Program-made: the position numbers and the translations under genes
Shown here: positions 4,934 through 45,095 of the stretch, piece by piece
Layout of the letters: the number at the start of each line of letters is the position of its first letter
Numbering within the stretch: the first letter of the stretch is position 1
Assembly (NCBI GenBank): GCA_017508045.1
Contig: JAFVZT010000002.1
Location: 56,104 to 120,103, forward strand
Source: Oscillospiraceae bacterium
GTDB taxonomy: Bacteria > Bacillota > Clostridia > Oscillospirales > Oscillospiraceae
Length of the DNA: 64,000 nt
Direction of reading: 5' to 3'
Notes under the pieces: model-generated
Told to the model about the DNA's origin: nothing
What the model saw: only the letters and a program-made list of their open reading frames with translations
Database searches by the model: none

Positions 4934-4959
4934 ACTTTCCCTCCTTAAAAACCCAACAA

Positions 4960-6421: not shown

Positions 6422-7018
6422 TCAGAAAAAGCCAAAATAGCCTGCCCCAATACCCAATACTGCCGATATGGCAATAATCAGTATGGGATGCACCTTTTTA
6501 AAGGCAAGCACCAGCATTGCAAGGAAAATTGCGCCGGAAATATAAAATCCGATGCCCGAAAACGTAGAAACAGACAGTCCGGCGGGGAAAAATACCGTAA
6601 GCAGAACGCCCAGCACCGCATTGGCAATCAAGCCGACCACCGCAGGCTTAAGGCCGGACATACAGCCCTGAACAATCCGGCTGTTGCGAAACTTGTCGTA
6701 GCATTTTGCAACAATCAAGATGATTACAAAACTGGGCAATACAACGCCCAGAGTTGCGCAAAATGAGCCAAACACAGACCCAAGCGCCGAGCCGCCCTGT
6801 CCTCCCATAACAGAACCTATATAGGTTGCCATATTGATGGCGAACGGACCGGGAGTGGATTCACTGACTGCCACAAAGTCGATCATGCTCTGCTGGGAAA
6901 TCACATCCCCCCAGCGAGCCCCTACCTCCTGCTGTATGAGAGGAAGCATGGCATAGCCGCCGCCAAAGGTAAAGGCACCGATCATAAAAAAGGTATAAAA
7001 AAGCTCCAAATAAATCAT
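6422..7018 (-). CDS. Chromate transporter family half-protein (second of pair)
   Basis: 198 residues, one CHR domain. The signature IGAFTFGGGYAMLPLIQQE lies near the N-terminus, followed by STPGPFAINMATYIG. Several hydrophobic segments follow. Short-chain CHR proteins work as heterodimeric pairs with inverted topology; the partner is immediately upstream, with its stop overlapping this ATG (ATGA). The start at 7018 has AGGAGGG upstream. Chromate is the named substrate of the family, but the true substrate in gut Clostridia is unknown. Confidence 0.9.
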   Translation of the reverse strand: MIYLELFYTFFMIGAFTFGGGYAMLPLIQQEVGARWGDVISQQSMIDFVAVSESTPGPFAINMATYIGSVMGGQGGSALGSVFGSFCATLGVVLPSFVIILIVAKCYDKFRNSRIVQGCMSGLKPAVVGLIANAVLGVLLTVFFPAGLSVSTFSGIGFYISGAIFLAMLVLAFKKVHPILIIAISAVLGIGAGYFGFF

Positions 7019-29272: not shown

Positions 29273-30126
29273 CCGGAAATAAATTCTCTGGGACTGATGC
29301 CGTATTCCGACTTAAATGCTCGGTAAAAGCTGGTGTAGTCGGAAAAACCGCAGCTTCTGCATACCTGTCCGGCATTCTCTCCCGCTGTCAGTAATTGCCG
29401 GGCCATCAAAAGCCTGCGAAGTAAAATATAACGGTAAACGCTGACCCCCACCTCCCGGCTGAAGGCATGGGACAGATAATACTTGCTGACATAAAAACGA
29501 ACAGCAAGGCTCTCCAGCGTCATCGGCTCTGCCAGATGCTCTGAAATGTAGGACAGCACATTTTCCACAAGGGACGACAGCTTCTGCCCCTCCTCCGGCT
29601 GATTCTGTTCTTGCTGGGCAATTCGGTTCAACTGCACCATAAACTGCAGAAAAAGCCCATAGGCAGACAAATCGCTGCCCAATTCCCGGCTGTAGTATTC
29701 CCGCACCATTTCACTTAAACGGGCAGTTAAAACCGGTCGCTCCGAATAGCTGGGACGAATTAAGTGGGTATGCTTTGGATTTTTCGTGTCAAAGCAACGG
29801 CTTAGATTTATCCGGTTGGAAAAGAGCGTTTCCAAATATTCCTTATTGATCCACAGTACAATCCGTTCATACACCTGTGTTTCGGAGGTAACAATGGGTC
29901 TGTGCAGCTCCTGAGGATTAATCAGAAGCAGATCACCGGCCTGCATCCTTATAATCCGCCCGTCAACCCAATATTCCACCTCGCCCCGGATGAGATAATA
30001 TACCTCATAAAAATCGTGATGATGTACCTCCACAGTATTGGGTCGTGGTTCCCGGTAGTGAAAAATCTCAAATGTATCCTTATGCATGGTCTGTCTGGGG
30101 TCAAAGCTCTGGGAACGCTCCCGCAT
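29269..30126 (-). CDS. AraC family transcriptional regulator with cupin sensor
   Basis: 285 residues. An N-terminal cupin shows HHHDFYEVYYLIRGEVEYWV and MQAGDLLLINPQELH; the C-terminal domain carries two helix-turn-helices (LESLAVRFYVSKYYLSHAF and CRSCGFSDYTSFYRAFK). The start at 30126 (MRERSQ) has AGAGG eight bases upstream. Divergent from uxuA, which it probably regulates in response to a sugar acid intermediate. Two AraC genes tail to tail in one locus suggest separate control of uptake and catabolism. Confidence 0.9.
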   Translation of the reverse strand: MRERSQSFDPRQTMHKDTFEIFHYREPRPNTVEVHHHDFYEVYYLIRGEVEYWVDGRIIRMQAGDLLLINPQELHRPIVTSETQVYERIVLWINKEYLETLFSNRINLSRCFDTKNPKHTHLIRPSYSERPVLTARLSEMVREYYSRELGSDLSAYGLFLQFMVQLNRIAQQEQNQPEEGQKLSSLVENVLSYISEHLAEPMTLESLAVRFYVSKYYLSHAFSREVGVSVYRYILLRRLLMARQLLTAGENAGQVCRSCGFSDYTSFYRAFKSEYGISPREFISG

Positions 30127-30247
30127 AATCATCACCTCTTAATGAGTATACAGCAATTTTAACAATATTTCAAGCAATAAATACAATTTATATTGCATTT
30201 AATTCATGGTACACTGTTGCCATAAACTAAAAAACGGAGGAATACTT

Positions 30248-31336
30248 ATGCCGATGCAAATGGGTTTTCGCTGGTATGGCGAAGGCAACGACAACATTAA
30301 GCTCAGCGACATCAAGCAAATCCCCGGTGTAACCAGTATTGTCTGGGCGCTGCACCACAAAATGCCCGGTGAAATCTGGGAGGACGCGGAAATTGCCGAG
30401 GTGAAACGCCAGTGCGCCGAGTACGGCTTCAACATTGATGTGGTTGAGTCCGTCAATGTCCACGACGATATCAAAATCGGTCTTCCCTCCCGCGACCTGT
30501 ACATCGAAAACTACAAGATTACCATGCGCAATCTTGCCAAGCACGGCGTAAAGGTTATCTGCTACAACTTTATGCCCATTTTCGACTGGACACGGAGTAA
30601 CCTGTTCCATGAGGTCGGCGACGGCTCCACCGCGCTGTTCTATGAAAAGAATATGATTCAGGATGACTACAACGCTATGGCAAAGTACATCCTGGACTTT
30701 ACCGAAAAGTACAATATGTCCTTCCCCGGCTGGGAACCGGAGCGTATGGCAAAACTGGACGAGCTGTTCAAGGCCTATAAGGATGTGGATCATGAAACAC
30801 TGTGGGCGAACCTGAAGTACTTTCTGGAGGCTTTGATGCCCACCTGTGAGGAGACCGGCATTAAAATGGCAATCCATATGGACGATCCCCCCTGGGACAT
30901 CTTCGGTCTGCCCCGTCTGCTTATCAACGAAGAAAATATCGACCGTTTCTTAAAGATGGTGGACAGCCCCTACAACTGCCTGACCCTTTGCTCCGGCTCT
31001 TTAGGTGCAGATCCCAACAATAATGTGGCAGACATCGTTCGCAAGCACGTTGACCGGATTGCTTTTGCTCATATCCGCAATGTCAAGCACTTTGAAAACG
31101 GTGACTTCTCCGAAGCCAGCCATCGGGACTGTGATGGCGACACCGGTATTCTGGACATCCTGAAGGCCTACCACGACGGCGGCTTTGAAGGCTACATCCG
31201 TCCCGACCACGGCAGACACCTGTGGGGAGAAGGCCCCGGCAGTGTCCGCCCCGGCTACGGTTTATATGACCGGGCATTGGGTATTATGTATATGCTGGGC
31301 GTTTGGGATATGCTCGATAAACTAAATAATAAATAA
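30248..31336 (+). CDS. uxuA: Mannonate dehydratase
   Basis: 362 residues, TIM-barrel enzyme of the hexuronate pathway: D-mannonate to 2-keto-3-deoxygluconate. MGFRWYGEGND opens the protein as in UxuA; other blocks are CYNFMPIFDWTR, MAIHMDDPPWDIFGLPR, CSGSLGADPNN and RPDHGRHLWGE, which include metal ligands. Start at 30248 has CGGAGG upstream; an in-frame reading 14 codons longer overlaps the promoter region. First gene of a three-gene operon with the SDR oxidoreductase and kinase. Confidence 0.95.
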   Translation: MPMQMGFRWYGEGNDNIKLSDIKQIPGVTSIVWALHHKMPGEIWEDAEIAEVKRQCAEYGFNIDVVESVNVHDDIKIGLPSRDLYIENYKITMRNLAKHGVKVICYNFMPIFDWTRSNLFHEVGDGSTALFYEKNMIQDDYNAMAKYILDFTEKYNMSFPGWEPERMAKLDELFKAYKDVDHETLWANLKYFLEALMPTCEETGIKMAIHMDDPPWDIFGLPRLLINEENIDRFLKMVDSPYNCLTLCSGSLGADPNNNVADIVRKHVDRIAFAHIRNVKHFENGDFSEASHRDCDGDTGILDILKAYHDGGFEGYIRPDHGRHLWGEGPGSVRPGYGLYDRALGIMYMLGVWDMLDKLNNK

Positions 31337-31352
31337 TTTGGAGGTAAAGAAA

Positions 31353-32198
31353 ATGGCTAATCTTCCCTTGAATATTGACTATACCGGTAAGGTTGTGGTT
31401 GTCACCGGCGCAGGCGGTCTGATCTGCGGTGCTATGGCTGCCGCCTTTGCCCGTTCCGGCGCTAAGGTTGCTGCACTGGATTTAAATGAGGATGCTGTTA
31501 AAAAGCTGGCAAATGAATTAAAGGCTGAAGGCTGCATCTGCGAAGGCTACAAAGCAAATGTTCTGGAGCCGGAGGCTTTGGAGGCTGTCCACCAGGAGGT
31601 TCTCCAGGATTTGGGTCCCTGCGACATTCTGATTAACGGCGCAGGCGGCAACAACCCCCGCGCAACTACTGACAATGAGTACCAGCACGAAGCCAAGGAG
31701 GGCACCAAGACCTTCTTCGATTTGGATGCTTCCGGCGTAGACTTTGTGTTTAAGCTCAACTTCCAAGGCACCTTGCTTCCCACCCAGGCCTTTGCCAAGG
31801 ACATGGTTGCGAAAAAGCACGGCGTTATCCTGAATATCTCCTCCATGAACGCCTACACCCCCTTGACAAAGATCCCTGCATACTCCGCCGCCAAGGCCGG
31901 TATTTCCAACTTTACACAATGGCTGGCCACCCACTTTGCCGGCACCGGCATTCGCTGCAACGCCATTGCTCCCGGCTTCCTGGTTTCCGCCCAGAACAAG
32001 GCGCTTTTGTTCAACGATGACGGCACACCCACTGCCCGTTCCGCAAAGATTTTGAACGGCACGCCCACTTCCCGCTTTGTGGACGCCGATGAGTTGCTGG
32101 GCGCAACCTTGTTCCTTTGTGATGACAAGGCCGCTTCCGCCATTACCGGTGTTGTCCTGCCCGTAGATGCCGGCTTTGCCGCATACTCCGGCGTATAA
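31353..32198 (+). CDS. SDR oxidoreductase, probable D-mannonate (fructuronate) oxidoreductase
   Basis: 281 residues. Short-chain dehydrogenase with the nucleotide motif VVTGAGGLICGAMA, NGAGGN, catalytic serine in ISSMNAY and the YSAAKAG Tyr/Lys pair. Classical UxuB is a longer, unrelated enzyme; Gram-positive genomes often use an SDR next to uxuA for fructuronate to mannonate, which is the favoured role. Starts 16 bases after uxuA with GGAGG. The chain TGxxxGxG is slightly altered (TGAGGLICG), as in related SDRs from this setting. Confidence 0.85.
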   Translation: MANLPLNIDYTGKVVVVTGAGGLICGAMAAAFARSGAKVAALDLNEDAVKKLANELKAEGCICEGYKANVLEPEALEAVHQEVLQDLGPCDILINGAGGNNPRATTDNEYQHEAKEGTKTFFDLDASGVDFVFKLNFQGTLLPTQAFAKDMVAKKHGVILNISSMNAYTPLTKIPAYSAAKAGISNFTQWLATHFAGTGIRCNAIAPGFLVSAQNKALLFNDDGTPTARSAKILNGTPTSRFVDADELLGATLFLCDDKAASAITGVVLPVDAGFAAYSGV

Positions 32199-32215
32199 TT
32201 TCAGGAGGTTTTACT

Positions 32216-33244
32216 ATGGCTAGAATTATTACCTTTGGCGAGCTGATGCTCCGTCTGCAGCCGTATAACTACGAGCGCTTTGTCCAGTGTGACCATGTAG
32301 AATTTACCTTCGGCGGCGGCGAAGCCAATGTTGCCGTTTCCCTCGCCAATTACGGTATGGATGCTGCATATGTTACCAAGCTGCCCACCCACGCAATCGG
32401 GCAGGCTGCTGTCAATTCCCTGCGCCGCTACGGCGTGGATACCACAAAGATCGTCCGGGGCGGCGACCGTGTGGGTATCTACTTTAATGAAAAGGGCGCT
32501 TCCCAGCGCGGCTCTGTATGCATTTATGACCGCGCCCACTCCGCCATTGCCCAGGCAGCTGTTTCCGACTTTAAGTGGGACGAAATCTTTGAGGGCGCAG
32601 ACTGGTTCCACTTTACCGGCATTACCCCGGCTCTGGGTGGAAATCTGGTAGAAATCTGCAAACAGGCCTGTGTGGCAGCAAAGGCCCGGGGCATTAAGAT
32701 TTCCTGCGACTTAAACTACCGTGGCAAGCTGTGGACCCGTGAACAGGCTCGCGAAGCCATGACCGAGCTATGTAAGTATGTGGATGTGTGCATTTCCAAT
32801 GAAGAGGACGCCAAGGATGTGTTCGGCATTGAGGCAGAAGCCACCGACATTTACGGCGGCAGCTTAAACCACGAAGGCTACAAATCTGTTGCCAAGCAGC
32901 TGGCTGACAGGTTTGGCTTTGAAATGGTTGCCATCACCCTCCGGGAAAGCCACTCCGCTTTCGACAACGGCTGGAGCGCTATGCTGTACAATGCTGCAAA
33001 TAACGAATACTGCTTCTCCAAGAAGTACGATCTGCACATCATCGACCGCGTCGGCGGCGGTGACAGCTTCGGCGGCGGTCTGATCTACTCCCTGCTCAGC
33101 GGCAAGGATACCCAGGCGGCGGTTGAATTTGCAGTTGCCGCTTCTGCACTGAAGCATTCCATCGAGGGCGACTACAATATGGTCACGGTTGCTGAAGTGG
33201 AAAAGCTGGCAGGCGGCGACGGCTCCGGCAGAATTCAAAGATAA
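32216..33244 (+). CDS. kdgK: 2-keto-3-deoxygluconate kinase (PfkB family)
   Basis: 342 residues. Ribokinase-fold sugar kinase with FGELMLRLQP at the N-terminus, FGGGEANVAVSLA, and the C-terminal anion-hole motif RVGGGDSFGGGLIYSL with the catalytic aspartate. Within this operon it should phosphorylate KDG made by UxuA to KDPG. The aldolase (eda) that would follow is not in the window, nor is glucuronate isomerase (uxaC), so the pathway is completed elsewhere. Confidence 0.9.
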   Translation: MARIITFGELMLRLQPYNYERFVQCDHVEFTFGGGEANVAVSLANYGMDAAYVTKLPTHAIGQAAVNSLRRYGVDTTKIVRGGDRVGIYFNEKGASQRGSVCIYDRAHSAIAQAAVSDFKWDEIFEGADWFHFTGITPALGGNLVEICKQACVAAKARGIKISCDLNYRGKLWTREQAREAMTELCKYVDVCISNEEDAKDVFGIEAEATDIYGGSLNHEGYKSVAKQLADRFGFEMVAITLRESHSAFDNGWSAMLYNAANNEYCFSKKYDLHIIDRVGGGDSFGGGLIYSLLSGKDTQAAVEFAVAASALKHSIEGDYNMVTVAEVEKLAGGDGSGRIQR

Positions 33245-33317: not shown

Positions 33318-33345
33318 AAAAACCTCCCCTGTTGGGGAGGTTTTT
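33318..33345. terminator. Bidirectional terminator
   Basis: AAAAACCTCCCC-TGTT-GGGGAGGTTTTT between convergent genes; ends the dlt-like operon on the minus strand and backs up the uxuA operon terminator. Confidence 0.85.
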
Positions 33346-33350
33346 ATCAC

Positions 33351-33860
33351 TTATTCCACAACGATAGCGTACTGAATGGAGCTGACTGCGTCCTTGTCCA
33401 GAATAATGGTCAGTGTTCCGCCGCCGTCTTTTAATACCCAGGCGTTTGAGCCGTTGAAGCCTTCATTGCCGTAGGCCTTTGTCACAGCTTCCTTTGTTGC
33501 GCCGATGGAAATGCCTTTTTCCGTAGCTACGCTGTCGTCTTTAAAATACCAGCCGTAGACATAGTCCTTTCCATCCTTGGGATAGGTTTCCAGATAAAAA
33601 CTGCCGTAATAGTAGCTCTTATCCAGTCCGTCAAAGGCGCAGCTTGCCGATTCGGTATAGCTGATTGGATCGCCCAACGCTTTAATAATCGGCTCTGCCG
33701 GTGCGTGTAAGGTAATTTTCGTTTCCTTATAGGTAAAATTGTAGGAAGACACCTGGCTCTGGTTGTTGCTGTTGTCTCCGCCGGTGGCAGGGTTGCCCTG
33801 GCAGCCCGCAAAAAGGAGCATCAGGCAGGCAAGTACTGTAATAAAAATGCGTTTTTTCAT
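33351..33860 (-). CDS. Lipoprotein, last gene of the dlt-like operon
   Basis: 169 residues. Signal peptide with lipobox LLFAGCQG (Cys about 19), a short Asn/Ser/Gly linker, then a beta-rich domain of about 140 residues (AKEAVTKAYGNEGFNGSNAW). Function unknown; the domain faintly recalls small secreted sensor or inhibitor folds. Start at 33860 has AGGAGAAGC upstream; a longer in-frame reading lies inside the preceding gene. It starts eight bases after the SGNH-like gene, so it is part of the same transcript. Confidence 0.78.
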   Translation of the reverse strand: MKKRIFITVLACLMLLFAGCQGNPATGGDNSNNQSQVSSYNFTYKETKITLHAPAEPIIKALGDPISYTESASCAFDGLDKSYYYGSFYLETYPKDGKDYVYGWYFKDDSVATEKGISIGATKEAVTKAYGNEGFNGSNAWVLKDGGGTLTIILDKDAVSSIQYAIVVE

Positions 33861-33868
33861 AGCTTCTC

Positions 33869-34930
33869 CTAATTCTGTTGGGTCTGCAGCGCAGCTTTTC
33901 TGTCGTTGTAGACCTGAGTTTTCTTCGCCCAAAGGGCGCTGATTTGGGTATCTGTCCGCCGGTCTGCGACACCGCATTCCTGAGACAGTATCTTACCAAA
34001 CCAATCCGATGCTTTCTCTGCTCCGTAGACATTTAAATGCAGGCCGGCATCGTAAGTATCCTTTGACCAGTCAATGCCGATTTCCTGCTGATAGTCCAGC
34101 ATATTGATATAGAGCAGTTCATTTTCTTCGGCATACTGAGCAATTTGCTCATCCCACTGCTCCCACCATATCGGTGACAGCGCCGGGGCTTTAATCAGCA
34201 CCAGCTGAGTTCCTTTTTCCTTGCACAGCTGCACCATTTTGTCTAAATAGTACCAGCTGTTTTCACCGAAGCTGTAATCCACCAGAGGACGCTCCACATA
34301 TTCACCGGTAACCGACTTCACACCGGTCTGCATCAGATAGCCGTTATCGGATACCTTGTCCCGATGCAGCCAATAGGTAAAATCATCCTTTGTCAGCTGT
34401 GACCAGCGGTCATGGTAACGCAAAATGGGGAACAGGTAGCTGTACTGCGCCTCCCACTTTTTCTCCTCCTCAGTCATGGATGCCATAATCGCGTTCCATT
34501 TGGAGCTTGACCAGCGCATACCGTCCAGCGTCATGCGGTTATATGCCTCCCGCTGGCTTTGCGCGCCGGTGCTTTTTGGGGTGTCATATTTCATGGACAG
34601 TACATTAAACACCATTACCTTAGGGGTTTCGTAACGAAAGGTTTCCTCCATAAGATAGTAGGACTGCCAAATCAGCTGCTGGGCGCTTCCGCGAATGTAG
34701 GAGGTTATCCCGTATTTTTCCCACAGAGTTATGGGGGAAAAGTTCTCATAAACCTCGCAGTCGCCGATAAACACCACGTCATTATTGCCGGCGTTATCAT
34801 AGTATTCCCCAATCAGCGCGCCTTCTTTTGTTTTATCCATATATTTTGGCATCAGCAGCGCCTGCAAAAAATACAGTGCCGCAATACACACCGCCAAGGT
34901 GGATGCCAATAAAATGCGTCGTTTTTTCAC
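33869..34930 (-). CDS. DltD/AlgX-like SGNH-fold extracytoplasmic protein
   Basis: 353 residues. One N-terminal membrane anchor (about 5-25, ILLASTLAVCIAALYFLQAL) and a large outside domain. The nucleophile block reads VVFIGDCEVYENFSP, where related MBOAT-partner proteins have Ser at the third position of the G-S-S/G-D-S motif; here it is Cys. The C-terminal D-x-x-H pair is DAGLHLN. DltD and AlgX/AlgJ proteins complete acyl transfer after the MBOAT enzyme. It follows the MBOAT gene by nine bases. It is only a remote DltD relative and the Ser to Cys change needs a structural alignment to confirm. Confidence 0.8.
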   Translation of the reverse strand: MKKRRILLASTLAVCIAALYFLQALLMPKYMDKTKEGALIGEYYDNAGNNDVVFIGDCEVYENFSPITLWEKYGITSYIRGSAQQLIWQSYYLMEETFRYETPKVMVFNVLSMKYDTPKSTGAQSQREAYNRMTLDGMRWSSSKWNAIMASMTEEEKKWEAQYSYLFPILRYHDRWSQLTKDDFTYWLHRDKVSDNGYLMQTGVKSVTGEYVERPLVDYSFGENSWYYLDKMVQLCKEKGTQLVLIKAPALSPIWWEQWDEQIAQYAEENELLYINMLDYQQEIGIDWSKDTYDAGLHLNVYGAEKASDWFGKILSQECGVADRRTDTQISALWAKKTQVYNDRKAALQTQQN

Positions 34931-34939
34931 GGTATCCTC

Positions 34940-36505
34940 CTAAAACTGGTTGTAAATGAAGTTGCTTGCGTTGTAGCCGATGCCGTAGCTGCCCATGAGC
35001 AAAACCACCAGCAAAAGAACAAACATCAAACTGTAGCGCAGCACCGGCTTGTCCCAAATAGCCTCCCGGAAGCTGCCTTTTTTCTCCTGGAAGAGACTTA
35101 GGGCAAACATTAAGATAATTCCGCAAAGCAAAATGCCATAGTCCAGACCGGTCAGCCCCAGCTTCATCATCGTTCCGTCCCAGAGGATATGAAAATTAAA
35201 GGTACTTAACAAGCTGCCCATCCGGGCGAAATACCCCCCTACATCGGGAAACAAATCCACAATACGAATGAGATTCATCAGCACAAACATCCGCAAAATC
35301 TCAAAGCCGCCGTACCATTTCCGGTTTTTAAGGCCGAAGCGGTTATGGAATTTTTCATACAACGGTGCCAATTCCTCGGATACCACAATGACAAAGCAGT
35401 TCATAAGTCCCCACAAAATAAAGTTGGGGGTTATGCCGTGCCAAACGCCGGTGACAACCCAGGTAGCAACAGATGCTGCATACACAGGCAAACGCTTGCC
35501 GAAATTACCCAGGCGGGTTCTTGCCGCCTTGCTCAGCTTCAGCATAGGCTGGCTGACGGAAATAGGGTAAAAAATGTAGCTTTTCATCCACTCGCCCAAG
35601 GTAATGTGCCACCTGCGCCAGTACTCGGCGATATTCTTTGAGAAAAAGGGGCGGATGAAATTTTCCTCCAGCTTTATGCCCAGAGCCTGAGAAAGTCCCA
35701 GCGCCATATCAATACCGCCGGTAAAGTCCGCATAAATCTGTACCGCATAGAAAACAGTAAGCAGGAAAAAGCCCACTCCGGTAAACTCCGGTGCTTTTAA
35801 CGCCACAACTGCCACAGCGATCCGGTCAGCAATCACAAGTTTTTTGAAAAAGCCCCATAAGAGCCGCTGCAGACCGAAGGACAGCTGCTTTCCGTCAAAG
35901 CTGCGCCCTTCAAACAGTTGGGGCGCCAGGTCAGAAAATTTACTGATGGGGCCTTGGATTAGCTGGGGAAAATAAGACACAAACAGCGCAAATTTAAAAA
36001 AGTTCTTCTGCGCCGGAACGGTTGCCCGATAAACATCTACCACATAACCAACACTTTGGAACATATAAAAGGAAATGCCCAGAGGCAAGCCCAGGGTCAA
36101 AAAGGACAATGTTCCACCCTTTGCCATAGAGCGAAAAGGCTCTGCCAAACAGAATTTGCACACAGCCAGCAAAGAGAAATTCAAAACCAGACACAAAATC
36201 ATCCAAACCCGGTTTTGCCTCTTTATTTTTGCCTTGTAGCTTTTTTTCTCCTCACGGGAGAGTGTTTGCTTGTTTTCCGCCAGGTATGTATCCTGCTTTT
36301 GATAATTGCGCGCCATAACCACAGCTGCACCGTAGGTAGAAACGGTGGTCAGCGCAATAAAGCCCAGATACGCAATGCCTGAGCACAGGTAGAAAACCCA
36401 GCTTGCCGCCAGCAGAAACATCCAGCGGACCTTCTGAGGCAGCAGATAGTACCCGATCAGGACGACTGCCGCAAACAGCAAAAAACTTACGGTTGTAAAC
36501 TGCAT
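34940..36505 (-). CDS. MBOAT family O-acyltransferase (DltB/AlgI-like)
   Basis: 521 residues, about 10-12 transmembrane helices. The family signature EYWRRWHITLGEWMKSYIFYP and the catalytic histidine in VVTGVWHGITPNF are intact. Length and sequence are closer to AlgI/PatA (about 500) than to classical DltB (about 400). Moves an acyl or aminoacyl group from a carrier across the membrane onto a surface polymer. Starts one base after the carrier protein gene, which strongly implies carrier-dependent function. Confidence 0.92.
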   Translation of the reverse strand: MQFTTVSFLLFAAVVLIGYYLLPQKVRWMFLLAASWVFYLCSGIAYLGFIALTTVSTYGAAVVMARNYQKQDTYLAENKQTLSREEKKSYKAKIKRQNRVWMILCLVLNFSLLAVCKFCLAEPFRSMAKGGTLSFLTLGLPLGISFYMFQSVGYVVDVYRATVPAQKNFFKFALFVSYFPQLIQGPISKFSDLAPQLFEGRSFDGKQLSFGLQRLLWGFFKKLVIADRIAVAVVALKAPEFTGVGFFLLTVFYAVQIYADFTGGIDMALGLSQALGIKLEENFIRPFFSKNIAEYWRRWHITLGEWMKSYIFYPISVSQPMLKLSKAARTRLGNFGKRLPVYAASVATWVVTGVWHGITPNFILWGLMNCFVIVVSEELAPLYEKFHNRFGLKNRKWYGGFEILRMFVLMNLIRIVDLFPDVGGYFARMGSLLSTFNFHILWDGTMMKLGLTGLDYGILLCGIILMFALSLFQEKKGSFREAIWDKPVLRYSLMFVLLLVVLLMGSYGIGYNASNFIYNQF

Positions 36506-36506
36506 A

Positions 36507-36734
36507 TTATTCTTCCATCAGTCTTTCCACCAGGGCATACAGTGCCTGGGCGGAATTGAAGTTTTCCGGTGTCAGCTCCACGGCGGGAATTTGGACATCA
36601 AATTCTCCGTCGATTTCTGCCACAATTGTAACAATGTCAAAGGAATCGAGAATTTTATTATCAATCAATCCGGTTTGGGTTTCAAAGTCAACCTCAGGAT
36701 GCAGTTCGCTTAAAATATTCAACAGTGCTTCCAT
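36507..36734 (-). CDS. Acyl/D-amino acyl carrier protein (DltC-like)
   Basis: 75 residues. Small four-helix carrier with the phosphopantetheine serine in ILDSFDIVTIVAEI. The acidic face (EIDGEFDV, AVELTPENF) is typical of carrier proteins. It lies between the adenylating enzyme and the MBOAT gene, as DltC does in dlt operons. DltC usually reads DSMGTV at the serine; DSFDIV is nearer to general carrier proteins, so the loaded acyl group is not certain. Confidence 0.9.
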   Translation of the reverse strand: MEALLNILSELHPEVDFETQTGLIDNKILDSFDIVTIVAEIDGEFDVQIPAVELTPENFNSAQALYALVERLMEE

Positions 36735-36745
36735 ATTTTTCTCCT

Positions 36746-38257
36746 TTATTTTCCTGTATACAGACCCTTAAGCAGATTTCTGTCAATCTTGCCGTTGGGG
36801 GTCAGCGGCAGGCTTTCCAGCTGCTTGGTTACATTGGGAACCATATACCGGGGCAGCTTTTCTTTAATATACCCGGTCAGCTCCGTTACAGACAGGTCGC
36901 CGGTATAATACAGAACGATTTTCTTCTTTTCATTGTCAAAAATGCAGCAGGCGCTGCGCACCTGGGGGTGCATATTGACAATCACCTCAATTTCGCCCAG
37001 TTCGATGCGGTGACCCATATGCTTAATCTGATAGTCCTTCCGCCCAGCAAACTCCAGTTCGCCCCTGTCATTCATCCGCCCCAAATCACCGGTGCGGTAA
37101 ATCAGCTCCGGATAAAGGTTATTCAGGGGGTTTTGCACAAAGGCCTCGGCCGTTTTTTCCGGGTTGCAATAGTAACCCAGTGTCAGCCGCGTGCCACGGA
37201 CGCAGATTTCTCCCTGCTGTCCCACCGGAGGGACTTGGTTGTTTTCGTCCAGCAAAATAATCTGGGTGTTCCGGAACGGGCCGCCAATGGGCAAGGTCTC
37301 CTCCTGGGAAAACTCCCGGTCTACCTCATAGTAACAGCAGATACCCGTGGTTTCCGTAGGTCCGTACAGGTTAATAAACCGGGCGTTGGGCAGAGCCTGC
37401 CGCCACAGGTTAAACTGCTTAATGGGAAATACCTCGCTGGCGAAGGCAATTGTCCGCAGATACTCGGGCTTTACCGTTTCAAATGTGCGGAAGGAGGAAA
37501 TCATAGTCAACGCAGACACTACCCAGCAAAGGGTATTAATTTTATGGGTGTTTAAAAACTCCACCAGCTTAATAGGGAACATAAACAGCTGCTTGGGAAT
37601 TAAAACCGTGGTTGCGCCATACTTAAGAGTGGGAATAACCTCTTTCAAATAGGCATCAAAGTATAGCGGTGTTTGATTGCCGAAAACCGTGGTTTCATCA
37701 AATTTCAGAACATCGCACAAATGCTCCACATAGTCAATAACGCTGCGGTGGCAGGCCATAACACCCTTGGGCACACCGGTAGAACCGGAGGTAAACACAA
37801 TATAAATGGGGTCAATGTCCAGCTGCTGCCGGCGTATTTCTGTCAAAGCTTCGGCATCAGCCTGTGCCTCAGCCAGCTCTTCATACCGAAACACCTTGCC
37901 CCGGTAATTCAGCTCTTGTGCCATAGCCTGAGTGGTTTCGTCGCAAATCAGTGCACCGGGCTCAAGGGTTTTAAAAATCAGCTCAATCCGGTGCCGGGGC
38001 ATTTCGTCATCCAGCGGCACATAGTAGCAGCCGGCATAGATTGCGCCGAAAAACGCCGCCAGGGTGGTGGGGTGTTTCCGCATAAAGACCACCACCGGCT
38101 GCTTGTAGAAGCCCTCCCGGTGAAGCCGGGTACCAATACTTTGCGCCTGAGCATAAACCTGAGAAAAGGTTAGAGTTGTTTCTTCGTTGGCAAAAGCCAC
38201 CTTATCCGGACAACGAGCCACGGTTTTTTCCAGATATTCCAAAATATTGGTCTGCAT
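36746..38257 (-). CDS. DltA-like amino acid adenylating enzyme
   Basis: 503 residues, one adenylation domain of the ANL superfamily. Core motifs: YIVFTSGSTGVPKGV (A3), NLYGPTETTG (A5), YRTGDLGRMNDRGELEF (A7/A8), HRIELGEIE, and the lysine in LTPNGKIDRNLL (A10). Length equals DltA, which activates D-alanine as AMP ester and loads it on DltC; the adjacent racemase raises the chance of another D-amino acid. Spaced 11 bases from the carrier gene and 14 from the racemase gene. Confidence 0.9.
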   Translation of the reverse strand: MQTNILEYLEKTVARCPDKVAFANEETTLTFSQVYAQAQSIGTRLHREGFYKQPVVVFMRKHPTTLAAFFGAIYAGCYYVPLDDEMPRHRIELIFKTLEPGALICDETTQAMAQELNYRGKVFRYEELAEAQADAEALTEIRRQQLDIDPIYIVFTSGSTGVPKGVMACHRSVIDYVEHLCDVLKFDETTVFGNQTPLYFDAYLKEVIPTLKYGATTVLIPKQLFMFPIKLVEFLNTHKINTLCWVVSALTMISSFRTFETVKPEYLRTIAFASEVFPIKQFNLWRQALPNARFINLYGPTETTGICCYYEVDREFSQEETLPIGGPFRNTQIILLDENNQVPPVGQQGEICVRGTRLTLGYYCNPEKTAEAFVQNPLNNLYPELIYRTGDLGRMNDRGELEFAGRKDYQIKHMGHRIELGEIEVIVNMHPQVRSACCIFDNEKKKIVLYYTGDLSVTELTGYIKEKLPRYMVPNVTKQLESLPLTPNGKIDRNLLKGLYTGK

Positions 38258-38271
38258 AGGCGTTCCTTTCT

Positions 38272-39003
38272 TTATCGGGTAATCAGACAGCGGTACTCCT
38301 TTTTTAGTGGCTTATCGCACATAAGCACTGCCTGCTGTGCCAGCACTTCCATAGCATCTATAAAACCGGAGCCAATCGCGTAATCGCGCTTTATCAGCGA
38401 CAGCTCCGTACAGCCTAAAATCACGGCTTCCGCCCCTTGGCTGCGCAAATCCTCTGCTGCTGTATAAAAGCGCTCCAGTTCTACAGGCTTGCCGGCCTTT
38501 ACATTTTGAAAAATCAAATGCATTACATCTTTCTGGGCTTGGAGTTTGGGAACAATCGGCTCCAATCCCTGATTAAGCAGCTCCCGGTGGAAAATGCCGG
38601 ATTGTATCGTGCCATCGGTAGCCATAATGCCCACTTTGCGCGCTCCGTTTTCCTGCAAATGCTTCACCGTTTCCCCAACGCCGTTAATAATGGGAGCAGC
38701 GATTCCCGTCTCCAAAGCGTCAAAGAAATAGTGGGCCGTCACGCAGGGAATGGCAATGCAGGATGCGCCCTGTTTTTGAAGAGCCTGTCCAATTCGAAGC
38801 ATCTGGGGCAGTGGGTTTTCCTTGGAATTGTCCAAAATATATTCCGTTCTGTCAGGAATATGCGGCATATTATAGACGATCATCGGCACATGCTGCTGGT
38901 CTACCGTCACATCGGTCATATTGATAATCAATTCCATAAAATGGGCTGTGGCAATAGGCCCAAGGCCGCCAATAACACCGAGTATTTTTCTGTCTGTTTC
39001 CAT
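38272..39003 (-). CDS. Asp/Glu-type amino acid racemase
   Basis: 243 residues. PLP-independent two-cysteine racemase. The first catalytic cysteine is in CIAIPCVTAHYFF and the second in VILGCTELSLI; GVIGGLGPIATAHFMEL is the N-terminal signature of aspartate racemase relatives. The usual Asn after the first Cys (PCNTAH) is Val here, hinting at altered substrate preference. Placement as the second gene of the dlt-like operon suggests it makes the D-amino acid consumed by the adenylating enzyme. Broad-specificity members of this family exist, so the substrate is open. Confidence 0.88.
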   Translation of the reverse strand: METDRKILGVIGGLGPIATAHFMELIINMTDVTVDQQHVPMIVYNMPHIPDRTEYILDNSKENPLPQMLRIGQALQKQGASCIAIPCVTAHYFFDALETGIAAPIINGVGETVKHLQENGARKVGIMATDGTIQSGIFHRELLNQGLEPIVPKLQAQKDVMHLIFQNVKAGKPVELERFYTAAEDLRSQGAEAVILGCTELSLIKRDYAIGSGFIDAMEVLAQQAVLMCDKPLKKEYRCLITR

Positions 39004-39012
39004 GGTATCACC

Positions 39013-40323
39013 TCACGGACGGGCATTGAGAATCGCTTGGTCATCCCAAGGCAGCGTGTTTGCAGGAAGGCTTTGGGTCGGTGTTGCGGGATACAAGGAC
39101 TCATCCCGATTGAAGCAATTGTTCTGCACCTTGGAGAAATTGTTCAATTTCTCATCTGTCACAAGGCACAAGCTCTTGCTCCACACATTGTCCATATGGT
39201 AGTAGCTTTTACCGCCATCGATACTGACCAAAAGCCAGTAGTGATTGGAGTCCTTTGCGTGGTTTTTAACCTTTACTACATCAATGGTTGGAATCCCCAG
39301 ACGCTGAAGCATCAGCTTTTGGATGGCATAGAAATAGAAGCAGTCGCCCTTTTTGGTTTGCAAAAACTCGTAGGCAGTCTGCAACCAGTCATCCCGGTCG
39401 GGGGCAGGGCCGTAGGTCAAATGCACACCCCGACGGGTCCAGACATATACTGCCTCCACCTTTTGCCGGTCGGTCATATCCTCCCGAATAAATTTCGCCA
39501 GGATATCATCCACGGCTTTGTAGATAACCTCAGGCTCCACGTGGTTGGCGCCCTTGGGCCGCACTGTTAATTTTGCGGTAAGGGTTTTCGTATTTCCCGC
39601 GTGATCCGTTGCCCTATAGGTTACGGTATAAACACCTGCTTTGGATAAATCCACCTTGGATGTGTCTATTTCCAATTGGGGGGTTTCGTCCTGGTCATCG
39701 GTAACCACAATTCCCAGCCGGTACGCAACCGATTCACCCAAATAAATTTCCAAATCCTTTACGCCCTGAATAACCGGCGCAGCGGTATCTACAATCACAG
39801 TCACCGGAAGCTTTGTGGTGTTTCCGGCAGCATCGGTCAAAATGACACACACCTTCTGCTTGCCGGCTTTTGTAATATCCGGCACAGTTTCAAACTTAGC
39901 TGTAACCTTTGTTGCGTCCTTCAAATCCGTTACAAAAGTCATGGGATCAGCGCTTTTGGGGTTGATAATCACCGCATCCTCTCTGGCAGTAGGCGCAACT
40001 GTATCCACAATATCCAACCGGGAGGAAAGCACCTTGTCACCTACCTGCAGCTGTACCGGATAAGAGCCGGGGACATCGGTGGCAATTGTATTGAAATCTG
40101 TTAATAAAACTGCCTTTTTTGCGGCTGAAACCTCGCTTTTTGGGAAAAAGTCCGCAGCCTGAGGAAGAGGCTGCCCTGCCTCCCACTTAAGCTGGCTGTA
40201 GCAGGACACCTTGAAAGAATCCACAAGTAAAACTGCGCCTAAGCAAATCGCCAAAGCCAGCACAAACAATACAATCGCCGTGCCGCTGTGCCGGCGTTTT
40301 CTGTTTTTTCTTTTTTGATTCAT
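39013..40323 (-). CDS. Membrane-anchored transglutaminase-like protein with Ig-like domains
   Basis: 436 residues. A basic N-terminus and one transmembrane helix (about 15-35), then three Ig/HYR-like repeats (for example GVKDLEIYLGESVAYRLG and VYTVTYRATDHAGNTK) to about residue 260, and a C-terminal transglutaminase-like domain. The Cys-His-Asp set appears as KKGDCFYFY, KDSNHYWLLV and SYYHMDNVW. Such surface cysteine enzymes can act as peptidases or crosslinkers of wall components. It is the first gene of the seven-gene dlt-like operon, nine bases before the racemase, with its own promoter. Confidence 0.87.
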   Translation of the reverse strand: MNQKRKNRKRRHSGTAIVLFVLALAICLGAVLLVDSFKVSCYSQLKWEAGQPLPQAADFFPKSEVSAAKKAVLLTDFNTIATDVPGSYPVQLQVGDKVLSSRLDIVDTVAPTAREDAVIINPKSADPMTFVTDLKDATKVTAKFETVPDITKAGKQKVCVILTDAAGNTTKLPVTVIVDTAAPVIQGVKDLEIYLGESVAYRLGIVVTDDQDETPQLEIDTSKVDLSKAGVYTVTYRATDHAGNTKTLTAKLTVRPKGANHVEPEVIYKAVDDILAKFIREDMTDRQKVEAVYVWTRRGVHLTYGPAPDRDDWLQTAYEFLQTKKGDCFYFYAIQKLMLQRLGIPTIDVVKVKNHAKDSNHYWLLVSIDGGKSYYHMDNVWSKSLCLVTDEKLNNFSKVQNNCFNRDESLYPATPTQSLPANTLPWDDQAILNARP

Positions 40324-40377
40324 ACAGTCTCTCCGTCAGCTCTGTGTCCAGAGCGAAGCAATAAAAATACATAATAA

Positions 40378-40406
40378 ATTATATCGCGAAATCCACAGAA
40401 AATCAA
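40378..40406 (-). promoter_or_regulatory. Promoter of the dlt-like operon
   Basis: TTGATT, 17 bases, TATAAT on the minus strand, ~45 bases ahead of the first gene. No recognisable operator in the divergent 190-base gap to the SLH protein gene. Confidence 0.65.
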
Positions 40407-40515: not shown

Positions 40516-41733
40516 ATGTCCCGCACCCGTATTATCTGCCTGGCGACAGCACTTGTATGCATCCTTTCTCTGGGCAGCATTGTTCTGGCAGCAGAGGTAG
40601 ACTGTGATGCTACCTACTGCTTCTCCCCCGCAGATTTCTCCGAAAATGATGAGCTTGCCGGTATCTGTATTACCCAGCTTCCCGACGCAAGCACCGGCAC
40701 TGTCCTTCTGGGCAGTCGGGTCATTCGCGAAGGTGATATTCTCACCGCACATCAGGTATCCCAAATGACCTTTGTTCCGCTGCGTACGGAAACCGATCGG
40801 GATGCTGTGGTTACCTACCTGCCAATCTACGACAATCGGGTAGACACCAGCACAACCATGACGCTTTCCATCCGTGGCAAAGAAGACAAAGCCCCTGTAG
40901 CGCAGGATTTTTCTCTGGAAACCTACAAAAATTTGCCCAATCAAGGTCAGCTGAAGGTCAGTGACCCCGAAGGCGGTGATCTGGTTTACACGCTGGTACG
41001 CAAGCCCAAGCGAGGTGAGGTCACCGTCAATCAGGACGGCACCTTCGTTTATACGCCCAAGAAGAACAAGGTAGGCGTTGATTCCTTCACCTACACCGCC
41101 GCTGACCCGGCAGGAAATGTGTCCCGGGAAGCTACCGTAACAATTCAAATCCTGAAGCCCACAGACGCGCGCCAGTATACCGATACAGCCGGCACATCTT
41201 GCCAGTTTGCAGCAGAGTGGATGCGCAATACCGGTCTGTTTGTGGGTGAAAAAATCGGTGATGCGGATTGCTTCTTCCCGGATAAAGCTGTCAGCCGGGG
41301 TGATTTTTTGATTATGCTGATTAACGCGCTGGACATTCCTGTAACCGATACAAACTACAGTGCAATTCCCGCGGATACCCCCAACTGGCTGAAGCCTTAT
41401 CTGGCAGCGGCTATGCGGTCCGGCTTAACGGCGGGTTTGCCGGATAACAAAACCGGCGGCTTCGGTGCTGAGGAGCTGATCACCGGTGCAGAAGCAGCGG
41501 TGATGCTGCAAAACGCCCTTGACCTGTCGGTTTCGACAAACGCTGTATCTGATGAAGCTCAAAAAAATCTTCCGGCTTGGGCGGCAAGCTCTATTACCGC
41601 TATGGCAGAAAACGGCATCAGCTTAAGCCCAGCGGAGGTCGTTACCCGCGGTCAGCTGGCACAGATGCTCTATCGGGTATCTCAGCTTGCGCCCTCTGCC
41701 CCCGGCATGTCCGTTATCCGGATGCAACAGTAA
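40516..41733 (+). CDS. SLH-domain surface protein with Ig/cadherin-like domain
   Basis: 405 residues. Signal peptide 1-25 (ending VLAAEV). An amino-terminal region of about 90 residues precedes a Big/cadherin-like domain, APVAQDFSLETYKN to VSREATVTIQIL. Three SLH-like repeats fill residues 215-390 (ADCFFPDKAVSRGDFLIMLI, LITGAEAAVMLQNAL, VVTRGQLAQMLYRVS), which bind pyruvylated wall polysaccharide. AGGAGG precedes the ATG. Divergent neighbour of the dlt-like operon: both concern the cell surface, but no link is shown. Confidence 0.86.
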   Translation: MSRTRIICLATALVCILSLGSIVLAAEVDCDATYCFSPADFSENDELAGICITQLPDASTGTVLLGSRVIREGDILTAHQVSQMTFVPLRTETDRDAVVTYLPIYDNRVDTSTTMTLSIRGKEDKAPVAQDFSLETYKNLPNQGQLKVSDPEGGDLVYTLVRKPKRGEVTVNQDGTFVYTPKKNKVGVDSFTYTAADPAGNVSREATVTIQILKPTDARQYTDTAGTSCQFAAEWMRNTGLFVGEKIGDADCFFPDKAVSRGDFLIMLINALDIPVTDTNYSAIPADTPNWLKPYLAAAMRSGLTAGLPDNKTGGFGAEELITGAEAAVMLQNALDLSVSTNAVSDEAQKNLPAWAASSITAMAENGISLSPAEVVTRGQLAQMLYRVSQLAPSAPGMSVIRMQQ

Positions 41734-41781: not shown

Positions 41782-42324
41782 TTAGACAGTAAAGTATTGC
41801 TTAAGGGGCGTCTTGCGGAGCAAAAAGTATACCGCCAAAAGCAAAAGCATATCCGGCACCATATATGCACCGTTATAAAGCGCGGAATACAGCCACGGGG
41901 TCGTCATAGTCATACCGAAAAAGCTTTCCGGCATATATTCTGCCCAAATGGTTGCCCCCACTACATAATGGACCAAAAACCGTGCCGCACAAGCAACGAC
42001 GGTTGCCACGCAGAAGCGCCCTTTAAACAGACCGGCTACACCCAAAACCGCGTAGGCAATGAGAAAATCTCCCAGAATGCTCTGCCAACCGATTGCGATA
42101 CCGCCTTCAAACAGCATTTGAAAGATTCCGTGGGTAAAGCTTACCAGCATACCCGGTCCAAAGCCCCAACGGACGCAGAAGATGATAATCGGCAGCATTG
42201 CAAAGTCGATACTGCCACCCCAGGGTAACTTGTACAGTGGCAGAAATCCTAAAATCTCCGCAACCGCAACGAGAATTGCTCCCTCCGCCAATGCGCGGAC
42301 AGAGTTGTGTGTTTTGTTTGCCAT
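41782..42324 (-). CDS. thiT: ThiT thiamine-binding S component of an ECF transporter
   Basis: 180 residues, six hydrophobic helices. SVRALAEGAILVAVAEIL, LPWGGSIDFAMLPIIIF and VRWGFGPGMLVSFTHGI are typical of ThiT, which binds thiamine and works with a shared EcfAA'T module (not in this window). Regulated by the TPP riboswitch immediately upstream, which independently supports the substrate. AGGAGG precedes the ATG. Confidence 0.95.
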   Translation of the reverse strand: MANKTHNSVRALAEGAILVAVAEILGFLPLYKLPWGGSIDFAMLPIIIFCVRWGFGPGMLVSFTHGIFQMLFEGGIAIGWQSILGDFLIAYAVLGVAGLFKGRFCVATVVACAARFLVHYVVGATIWAEYMPESFFGMTMTTPWLYSALYNGAYMVPDMLLLLAVYFLLRKTPLKQYFTV

Positions 42325-42346
42325 ATTGCAAACCTCCTAAAATAAA

Positions 42347-42386
42347 TTATCGCACTGCAAACCCGTCAAGGTGCGCAATGCGATAA
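42347..42386 (-). terminator. Riboswitch-controlled terminator ahead of thiT
   Basis: TTATCGCATTGC / GCAGTGCGATAA, a 12-bp stem with one G-T pair, followed by TTTATTTT and then the thiT ribosome binding site. Placed between the TPP aptamer and the gene, so it is the probable expression platform. Confidence 0.6.
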
Positions 42387-42401
42387 AAAATCCCATATGG
42401 C

Positions 42402-42492
42402 ATCTTTCCCTACGACGGTACTAACCGTATCAGGTTCACGGGTCTAAGGCGCATACGCCTAATCTCAGCCGGATTTGTCCGGCTCCCCGAAG
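42402..42492 (-). promoter_or_regulatory. TPP riboswitch (THI element)
   Basis: On the minus strand the conserved blocks occur in order: GGGGAGCC, GGCTGAGA, GACCCGTGAACCTGAT, GTTAGTACCG and CGTAGGGAAA. This is the thiamine pyrophosphate aptamer. It lies between its promoter and the thiT gene. Confidence 0.95.
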
Positions 42493-42518
42493 ATAGATTT
42501 GTGTTGCGATTTAAGGCC

Positions 42519-42546
42519 ATTATACAGAATTTCTAAAAATTGTCAA
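42519..42546 (-). promoter_or_regulatory. thiT promoter
   Basis: TTGACA, 16 bases, TATAAT on the minus strand. The -35 box contains the stop codon of the preceding HIT-family gene. Confidence 0.7.
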
Positions 42547-43562: not shown

Positions 43563-45095
43563 TTATTTAGGTGCCTTCATATCCGCATCTGTCAGCTTGT
43601 GACCAACCATAACCCGTTCTATCAGATACTTGGCGTGGGCAACTTCTTCCAAATACGGATGCATCACATAAGACTTGTGACCGGGGGCGGAGTAGGTCGG
43701 CTCACTGCCGCCGGAGCCGGAAACAGAAAAGCTTTGAATATTCCAGCTTGCCATATCCCCCAGCTGCATTTTTACAAGGGTGCTGATTTCCTTTGTGGTA
43801 ATGCTTGTCCGGAACATGCCCTTAATGCCGGCCATGATTTCGGAATAGCCGGAAATGATGGTAGTTCCCGTTGTCATTTTTTCAATCAACGCCGTAATGA
43901 TCTTCATCTGGTTCTTACCGCGACCCCGATCGCCGCCGGATTGATGATACCGATCTCGGGCAAACGCCAAAGCACGGACGCCGTCCAGCTCAATCTCACC
44001 TTCATTAAAGAAATGCTCACCCACAGAAAACGCCTTGTCATTATAAACGGTGACGCCGCCCACAGCATCAACCAGCTTTTCAAAGCCGGTAAAGTTAATC
44101 TGGGCGTAGTAGGCAATGTCAACGCCGTAGAAATTTGCTAAGGTTTTTACGGAGTTCTTAATGCCGTATACACCGCAATTGGTAAGCTTGTCCAACTGCC
44201 CGTCTCCTGCAGGATTTGGTACATAGTAGTCCCGGGGCGTGTTTAAAAGCAAAATTTGCTTAGTAACGGGATTTACAACCACCATAATATTGACATCGCT
44301 TCTTTTGGTTTTCAGCGTCGTGCTGCGGGAATCGGAGCCGCTGATATACACAATAAACGGAGCCTCATTCACCGGTCCTTTCGGTATATCCGGCTGCTCC
44401 GGAGTTTCCGGCTCTTCCGGCTCCTCCGGCTGCTCCAAGGAATCAATGGGTATTGTATGCATAATGCGGGCATTTTGCAAAAAATCCTCATACCCTTCCT
44501 CCTCCATAAGCATAAACACTGCCGCGCCGTTCATAATCAACGCATCGGTCTTATGGGAAAACAGGGCATCTACCATATCCGAAAACTTCTCATGCTTTGT
44601 AAGAATGGGATATTTTTGTATCTTATCCTGAATGCGTGATATCACCTGTTCTGTATAAAATACATCGTAGTTTTCAACAATGGAGAAACGGTAGTTGCCC
44701 ATGGTGGACAGCTCAGTTTTTGTATCGTCCTTTCGGATGAAAATATAGATTTCTCCCTCGTCTGCCGTTTGGTTAAGCTCTACATCCGTTACCGCATGAA
44801 GTGTGGTGTATATGTCCGTGGCAACCTTAGATAACAATGCACAACCGCCGACAACCATCAACGCCAAAATGCAGGAAATAATTCTGCGTACCTTTCCCAC
44901 AGGCCTTTTCCCCCGCACAAAAAGCAGCAGTGCCGTTACCAAAATGGGAAAAAGCAGCACAGCCCCAAACAGGGCATAATACTTTTCCGGCAACAAGTCC
45001 AGCCGGAAAACAATCACAGCGGTGAATGCCTCCGCAGCCGCCTGCAGCAGCAGTACAAAAACAGATATAATAATCCAGACTATGTTCTTTTTCAT
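43563..45095 (-). CDS. LytR-CpsA-Psr (LCP) family cell-wall polymer ligase
   Basis: 510 residues. Three hydrophobic N-terminal helices (about 5-110), a periplasmic-side accessory region, a Pro/Glu-rich linker (PEEPEEPETPEQPDIPKG near 225-245), then the LCP domain. Catalytic features include GSDSRS, KRSDVNIMVVVNP, LNTPRDYYV and FARDRYHQSGGDRGRGKNQ. LCP enzymes attach teichoic acid or capsule to peptidoglycan, a link to the dlt-like system 5 kb away. Followed by a hairpin at 43491. Confidence 0.93.
   Translation of the reverse strand: MKKNIVWIIISVFVLLLQAAAEAFTAVIVFRLDLLPEKYYALFGAVLLFPILVTALLLFVRGKRPVGKVRRIISCILALMVVGGCALLSKVATDIYTTLHAVTDVELNQTADEGEIYIFIRKDDTKTELSTMGNYRFSIVENYDVFYTEQVISRIQDKIQKYPILTKHEKFSDMVDALFSHKTDALIMNGAAVFMLMEEEGYEDFLQNARIMHTIPIDSLEQPEEPEEPETPEQPDIPKGPVNEAPFIVYISGSDSRSTTLKTKRSDVNIMVVVNPVTKQILLLNTPRDYYVPNPAGDGQLDKLTNCGVYGIKNSVKTLANFYGVDIAYYAQINFTGFEKLVDAVGGVTVYNDKAFSVGEHFFNEGEIELDGVRALAFARDRYHQSGGDRGRGKNQMKIITALIEKMTTGTTIISGYSEIMAGIKGMFRTSITTKEISTLVKMQLGDMASWNIQSFSVSGSGGSEPTYSAPGHKSYVMHPYLEEVAHAKYLIERVMVGHKLTDADMKAPK

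Follow-up and report, generated by a model that had tools for sequence, protein, structure and literature searches.

Which amino acid does an operon built like dlt place on the cell surface when it carries a racemase of its own? The question is raised by seven minus-strand genes (40323-33351) in a 64,000-nucleotide window, which is the whole stretch of DNA analysed here (positions 56,104 to 120,103 of contig JAFVZT010000002.1, Oscillospiraceae bacterium, assembly GCA_017508045.1). In order of transcription they encode a transglutaminase-like protein, an Asp/Glu-type racemase, an amino-acid adenylating enzyme, a carrier protein, an MBOAT acyltransferase, an SGNH-fold protein and a lipoprotein. 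They belong to a real and widespread system that, judged from its sequences, is dlt-like but is not dlt. We read it as a Dlt-like surface aminoacylation pathway whose substrate has probably become an acidic D-amino acid, with D-aspartate (D-Asp) the likeliest, and give this reading a probability of roughly 0.55. It draws on the gene set and its conservation, the substrate pocket, the catalytic residues, the clade structure and a genome-level tie to Asp-type racemases.

Gene set and its conservation

The initial annotation had described seven genes in one direction with gaps of 1-14 bases. The minus strand does contain all seven open reading frames, separated by 9, 14, 11, 1, 9 and 8 bases. Pfam matches were Transglut_core (40.7 bits), Asp_Glu_race (152), AMP-binding (226.8) and MBOAT (68.7).

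A scan of 84,980 species genomes gave 442 relatives of the adenylating enzyme, and the best 80 of the 442 were taken as the near set. These loci come from Oscillospiraceae, Lachnospiraceae and other Clostridia, mostly from metagenome assemblies. Because they are the nearest relatives, near-set figures are not family-wide. All seven genes were found in 46 of the 52 fully visible loci, meaning those with at least 3 kb upstream and at least 5 kb downstream. Linkage of the racemase gene could be assessed in 77 loci and was seen in 70; the transglutaminase gene was present in 75 of 76. Outside the linkage count were L110, whose contig begins inside the adenylating gene, and L075 and L116, which have less than 1.5 kb upstream. 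Neighbouring genes stood a median 9 to 19 bases apart, and duplicated transglutaminase genes 35. The gene set is conserved across Clostridia, and a chance neighbourhood was ruled out by the 46 complete loci. Named isolates among the carriers of the operon are Hominifimenecus microfluidus CLA-AA-H215 and Cuneatibacter sp. NSJ-177.

A wider sample comprised 295 genomes of the same order, of which 45 had a related adenylating enzyme at E 1e-60 or better. We took 44 of these neighbourhoods (the window's own was excluded) and read the pocket at nine positions. Alignments used for residue conservation held only loci with an adenylating match of at least 250 bits, leaving aside L040-L044, L046 and L048-L050, which have other codes, and the contig repeats L057, L058, L059, L062, L100 and L122.

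Substrate pocket of the adenylating enzyme

The stand-alone adenylating enzyme (36746..38257, minus strand) passed TIGR01733 (336.4 bits, cut-off 317.4). Against the DltA models it reached 290.7 bits where 559.85 are required (TIGR01734) and 305 where 476 are required (NF003417). The DltA proteins of two dlt operons of the same order, L048 and L046, scored 477 and 495 for TIGR01734, both under that cut-off, and 489 and 505 for NF003417, over it.

Its pocket reads D-A-K-C-A-A-L-G-I, with the usual Lys (K490). Pocket positions were mapped on a fragment of PheA, in whose numbering Lys205 is position 239. D201, K205, C244 and G305 were found in 84, 84, 85 and 85 of 85 adenylating enzymes, the exception being L045. 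This locus (3841-6939) appears to be a decaying copy of the operon, with a truncated adenylating gene and a racemase that has Ser for its first Cys; no carrier, MBOAT or SGNH gene was seen at it.

The pockets of DltA in the dlt operons of the order are DLLVICTVL, DVVVLCTVL and alike, with eight of nine positions different from the window's. Enzymes for acidic substrates typically have a basic residue at position 239, as in the Glu code of SrfAA (DAKDLGVVDK). The comparison with DltA and with nonribosomal codes that had been proposed for this enzyme therefore gives a pocket that is not that of DltA. In addition, DltA over the cut-off was found in none of 30 genomes with the window's type of pocket, the best match being 301 bits, which is far short of what the DltA of L048 and L046 reach (477 and 495). 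An amino acid other than D-alanine had been suggested on the strength of the racemase. The pocket and the missing DltA support the departure from alanine, but which amino acid takes its place we infer.

The racemase and its tie to the operon

The racemase (38272..39003, minus strand) is of the type that works without pyridoxal phosphate (PLP), and has the catalytic pair C87/C198 and the motif PCVTAH. It scored 222.7 bits for the Asp/Glu family profile TIGR00035 (cut-off 93.1); its closest solved match is the Asp racemase 1jfl. C87 was present in 72 and C198 in 73 of 73 rows, so that the two-cysteine Asp/Glu-type enzyme of the initial annotation is upheld.

The racemase was also said to be dedicated. 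For the glutamate racemase model TIGR00067 it gave 38.1 bits, below 146.65, and a separate MurI is encoded in the same genome (G000:C11), which is incomplete (1.46 Mb, 76 percent complete). A separate MurI over the cut-off was present in 28 of 31 genomes. The operon enzyme as the housekeeping glutamate racemase was thus ruled out, and D-Glu needs no dedicated racemase because MurI is encoded separately.

We then asked how firmly Asp-type racemases go with the operon. In a control of 30 of the 70 linked near loci, the linked copy was the sole Asp-type racemase above 100 bits in 30 of 30 genomes (next best 53 bits). The near-set search for unlinked copies covered 12 genomes, i.e. those of 10 loci without a linked racemase (L075 and L116 included), that of L110 and the window's own. 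Seven of the 10 carry a racemase elsewhere; no Asp-type racemase was found genome-wide in that of L110. Among near loci with at least 1.5 kb upstream and no linked racemase, six of eight have an unlinked one, against 0 of 30 controls (Fisher 1e-5). In the order sample, Asp-type racemases at E 1e-25 or better occurred in 11 of 15 genomes with the window's pocket class and in 44 of 280 others (Fisher 2.9e-6).

Co-occurrence of the racemase with the rest of the set is therefore close among near relatives (70 of 77), but looser in the order at large (4 of 14 genomes). Set against the refuting outcome named at first, a DltA pocket together with sporadic linkage, the result is mixed. In the two sets together, 13 of 20 genomes without the linked copy hold another, and in 6 of these 13 it lies beside peptidoglycan-type genes. 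Five of six unlinked racemases in the order sample adjoin MurE or AsnB plus an ATP-grasp gene; the ATP-grasp match at L305 is very weak (19 bits), the ATP-grasp protein of L307 has no Pfam match, and at L306 and L307 the racemase is oriented opposite to its neighbours. Racemases are also present in L242 and L032. At L141 (1-2193), MurE and an Asp-type racemase are fused in one reading frame.

For the racemase tree, rows under 180 residues, exact duplicates and the repeat linked racemases L252, L265 and L273 were removed. It has five changes between linked and unlinked state, at least two of them forced by well-supported branches. Racemases of L073, L081 and L098, which precede the transglutaminase gene, and that of L218, which follows the lipoprotein gene, group with canonical racemases and 1jfl. 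The linked racemases thus do not form a single clade, and linkage arose or was replaced on more than one occasion. Together these results make D-Asp the most economical product, though the enzyme may make another acidic amino acid.

Sister classes with other pockets

Adenylating enzymes of the wider sample fall into pocket classes, here called DAKC (that of the window), DVK, VD and SM, with six order-sample rows outside any class. The tree was built with 14 of the 80 near loci and 7 of 12 DltA-like loci, without L039, L045, L047, L050, L248 and L249. In this quick tree, which carries a long-branch warning for L049, L304 and others, each class is one clade and a fully supported branch separates all of them from the DltA-like enzymes.

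In the order sample the transglutaminase gene occurs in 14 of 14 DAKC loci and in 0 of 27 loci of the DVK, VD and SM classes, and a linked racemase was likewise found in 0 of the 27. In 13 of 15 DVK loci, L041 and L042 included, the adenylating gene is immediately followed by a gene for a PLP decarboxylase; none was seen at L231 and L234, and in the unclassified L241 it follows the carrier gene. These sister operons (L041 8325-15117, L042 8589-13141, L206-L216) have the pocket DVK..S.CN and a DapDC-like decarboxylase before the carrier gene. The decarboxylase scored 175.5 bits for TIGR03099, below the cut-off of 478.45. Such a pairing recalls the AMP ligase and PLP decarboxylase of XrtA/PEP-CTERM systems (TIGR03098/TIGR03099), but the DVK operons go on with carrier, MBOAT and SGNH genes.

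In all five loci of the VD class (L040 3525-9413, L238, L239, L240 and L244) a gene of 254-258 residues stands between the adenylating and carrier genes. It is a GNAT in L040, and the other four are homologues with 25-40 percent identity. A gene downstream of the MBOAT in L040 has a polysaccharide deacetylase domain. The SM class (L220, L228, L229, L230, L233, L243 and L245), with the pocket SM.YLALDI and near variants, keeps carrier, MBOAT and SGNH genes straight behind the adenylating gene in 5 of 7 loci, the exceptions being L233 and L243. Its pocket is without the Asp that normally binds the amino group, hinting at a substrate that has no alpha-amino group.

Pocket and companion enzyme thus change together across the classes. 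Since the other pockets come with a PLP decarboxylase, with a GNAT or with no additional enzyme, a modular family is suggested.

Carrier, acyltransferase and SGNH protein

The carrier protein (36507..36734, minus strand) has the phosphopantetheine serine S31 in DSFDIV, conserved in 80 of 80 rows. Its PP-binding match is weak (20.5 bits, cut-off 20.8), and it stays below the DltC models (34.1 against 68 and 21.8 against 52.35), for which the carrier of L046 reached 59.7 and 52.5. The remark that its serine motif is not that of DltC holds, with DSFD in the window and DSFG in the true dlt operons L046 and L048.

The MBOAT acyltransferase (34940..36505, minus strand; H300/H356) has 521 amino acids and is, as had been noted, AlgI-sized. 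It is also of another type than DltB, with 140.6 bits against 375 for TIGR04091, where the DltB of L048 scored 432.4. DltB is nevertheless its closest solved relative, and DltB proteins were the only solved MBOATs found. The protein ends in FIYNQF, an acyl-shuttle motif F-x-Y-x-x-F (F516, Y518, F521) that was found in 75 of 75 MBOATs complete at the C-terminal end; the rows also include four gaps. In PMC12148441, DltB is described as working with a carrier and with a separate DltX that bears F-x-Y-x-x-F, and other MBOAT/SGNH pathways as having no carrier, an acyl-CoA donor and the motif fused to the MBOAT. The operon of the window is a hybrid of the Dlt and PatA-type designs, because it has both a carrier and the fused motif. 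It shares the fused C-terminal motif with PatA/PatB of peptidoglycan O-acetylation, but differs from them in its dedicated carrier and adenylating enzyme and in a Cys at the nucleophile position of the SGNH protein.

That protein (33869..34930, minus strand) had been labelled DltD/SGNH-like. Its only Pfam support is a weak Lipase_GDSL_2 match (20.6 bits, cut-off 32.9); no DltD match was found in Pfam or NCBIfam, and profile comparison with true DltD gave a probability of 3.5 percent and no alignment. The DltD part of the label was therefore dropped, and we describe the protein as a Cys-variant SGNH protein. C58 of the GDCE motif stands at the nucleophile position and D294 and H298 form DxGxH; all three are conserved in 70 of 70 rows, and the Cys also in 13 of 13 readable DAKC loci of the order sample. 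The motif is GDSE (once GDSL) in 11 DVK proteins read and GNSD in five SM proteins read. In a profile alignment Cys58 falls on the Ser of the DVK-class proteins with 100 percent probability. In the confident structural model (predicted local distance difference test, pLDDT, 94) it occupies the turn from strand to helix where an SGNH nucleophile would be expected. Neither the SGNH profile nor that of the lipoprotein gave a useful match in sequence searches against solved structures. A cysteine in this role would suggest a thioester intermediate and possibly an amine acceptor.

Proposed pathway and alternative explanations

Substrate, stereochemistry, order of transfer, acceptor and bond type we infer as follows. 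The racemase would convert L-Asp to D-Asp, which the adenylating enzyme would activate, with Lys205 reading the side-chain carboxylate, and load on the carrier. The MBOAT would take the aminoacyl group through the membrane and transfer it to the Tyr of FIYNQF, the shuttle at its own C-terminus. From there the group would move as a thioester to Cys58 of the SGNH protein and then to an acceptor at the surface. Outside the membrane, the transglutaminase-like protein and the lipoprotein would serve as companions common to such operons. No described pathway with this seven-gene composition was found in open-licence PubMed Central titles or abstract openings, in line with what had been claimed at first.

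Several results weigh against this pathway. In 64 of 73 linked racemases, V, I or M takes the place of the Asn that would follow the first catalytic Cys, and the racemase scored 211.7 bits for the NCBIfam cysteate racemase CuyB model NF052483, over its cut-off of 190. An Asp-type racemase is missing from the near genomes G015, G061 and G068. In the order sample without the window it is linked in 4 of 14 genomes, unlinked in 6 and absent from 4 (G350, G188, G310 and G292). Among the seven unlinked racemases of the near set only that of L141 has a peptidoglycan neighbour within 1.5 kb on each side, and those of L140 and L144 adjoin exopolysaccharide sugar transferases. That the ATP-grasp genes beside unlinked racemases encode D-Asp ligases (aslA) is itself judged from their neighbours. 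An acid-specific role for Lys at position 239 depends on nonribosomal codes, the strings of which were not found in the open-licence literature. K205 is common to the DVK and VD classes and not special to the racemase-bearing one; it therefore argues for an acidic side chain and not for Asp in particular. Finally, the majority of the genomes are metagenome assemblies, and the Fisher tests on racemase presence ignore kinship.

Some of these points favour another acidic substrate. The activated amino acid could be D-Glu, D-cysteate, L-Asp or L-Glu, with the racemase serving it or setting the balance of L- and D-forms; we regard this as the foremost alternative, though an unlikely one. K205 would suit any anionic side chain, the racemase passes the cysteate racemase model, and VD pockets such as DLKSIGVVD agree with the Glu code at six of nine positions. 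On the other hand, D-Glu is already supplied by MurI in most of the genomes searched, and the unlinked substitutes of the order sample stand mostly in D-Asp-type neighbourhoods. The CuyB model seems unspecific because a racemase beside MurE scores higher on it (230.1) than the window's; the NCBIfam label was not relied on.

A further, doubtful extension would make the operon one branch of a modular, carrier-fed membrane acyl-transfer family. Pocket and supply or tailoring enzyme (Asp-type racemase, PLP decarboxylase, GNAT or none) would co-vary, and the racemase class would pass D-Asp through an SGNH thioester to give amide-linked surface D-aspartate, on which the transglutaminase-like protein may act.

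It is improbable that the locus is a diverged D-alanylation operon whose racemase supplies something unrelated. Like Dlt (DltA-D and DltX), it has an adenylating enzyme, a carrier, an MBOAT and an SGNH-fold transferase in one operon, with chemistry in the same order; the companions are common to true dlt operons, and the solved MBOATs found were all DltB. It differs from Dlt in its pocket and dedicated racemase, in a shuttle motif fused to the MBOAT in place of a separate DltX, and in an SGNH protein that is not DltD and has Cys where DltD has Ser. Pocket, model scores and SGNH protein ruled out a plain dlt operon. The DltA and DltB model scores, which operons of the order approach or pass (432 for DltB), and the separate clade of DltA-like enzymes also speak against the diverged form.

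Still less probable is a racemase whose D-Asp goes into peptidoglycan or is released, and which is merely co-transcribed with an operon for an L-amino acid. Related genomes do have Asp-type racemases beside MurE, AsnB and ATP-grasp genes. In Lactococcus lactis, racD and aslA share an operon for D-Asp cross-bridges, which AsnH amidates (PMC4155827). That system resembles the proposed pathway in devoting a cofactor-free Asp racemase to a D-amino acid of the cell wall; it differs in that an ATP-grasp ligase joins D-Asp to peptidoglycan precursors, where the window has adenylation, a carrier and membrane transfer. Against mere co-transcription are the linkage of more than one racemase lineage to the operon and the strong genome-level tie of the DAKC pocket to Asp-type racemases. 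A small-molecule pathway of the nonribosomal-peptide kind, favoured by the better match of the adenylating enzyme to tyrocidine synthetase (242.2 bits) than to DltA (194.7) among solved structures, is the least credible, as the operon has no condensation or thioesterase domain and does have a shuttle-motif membrane acyltransferase, an SGNH partner and a lipoprotein and exported transglutaminase-like protein of the sort that also accompany true dlt operons.

If the D-Asp pathway is correct, surface aminoacylation would extend beyond D-Ala to a new chemical decoration of the bacterial surface. Many gut Clostridia would then attach a D-Asp residue to a surface acceptor and with it both a positive and a negative charge, which D-alanylation does not do. 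The union of a Dlt activation half with a PatA-type fused-shuttle half, with Cys at the SGNH nucleophile position, would also make the acyl-Tyr shuttle model testable with new chemistry.

Companion genes and genomic setting

The transglutaminase-like protein (39013..40323, minus strand) has Ig-like domains and is predicted to be membrane-anchored or exported. C328, H361 and D378 are each conserved in 78 of 79 rows, the remaining row being a gap. The small lipoprotein (33351..33860, minus strand; model pLDDT 87) has no Pfam match, and its lipobox C20 is conserved in 67 of 67 rows.

A search of the order sample for DltA relatives gave 14 genomes. In 9 of the 11 DltA-like loci of families 7 and 12, lipoprotein and transglutaminase-like genes lie just upstream of dltA, and the other two begin at or near a contig edge; at the dlt-like loci of G348, G173 and G211 neither gene was seen. 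Classical dlt operons preceded by both are L046 6299-12098, L048 7038-12744, L294-L297 and L299-L301. L048 encodes a DltB and a DltD that exceed their curated cut-offs, as well as a lipoprotein homologous to the one in the window (99.6 percent probability). In L046 the transglutaminase-like protein bears choline-binding repeats. The companions are not tied to one amino acid because true dlt operons also have them. The surface transglutaminase-like protein, presented at first as part of a special set, is thus present and conserved but not special to it, since 9 of 14 dlt-like loci of the order have it too.

A promoter-like site (TTGATT, 17 nt, TATAAT; 40378..40406, minus strand) precedes the operon and a terminator-like hairpin of 12 pairs (33318..33345, minus strand) marks its end, both as consensus matches only. 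The LCP gene that had been placed within 4 kb lies at 43563-45095, about 3.2 kb upstream. Between that gene and the operon, a divergent gene (40516-41733) codes for a protein that has Ig/cadherin-like domains and a weak match to S-layer homology; its relatives stand near the operon in L052 and L066. A thiamine transporter gene (Thia_YuaJ) follows at 41782-42546, with a sigma-70 consensus (12/12) about 200 bases upstream. On the other side, a hexuronate-type cluster (29269-33244) contains an AraC-type regulator divergent from a D-mannonate dehydratase (UxuA), a dehydrogenase-like gene assigned by eye and a PfkB sugar kinase.

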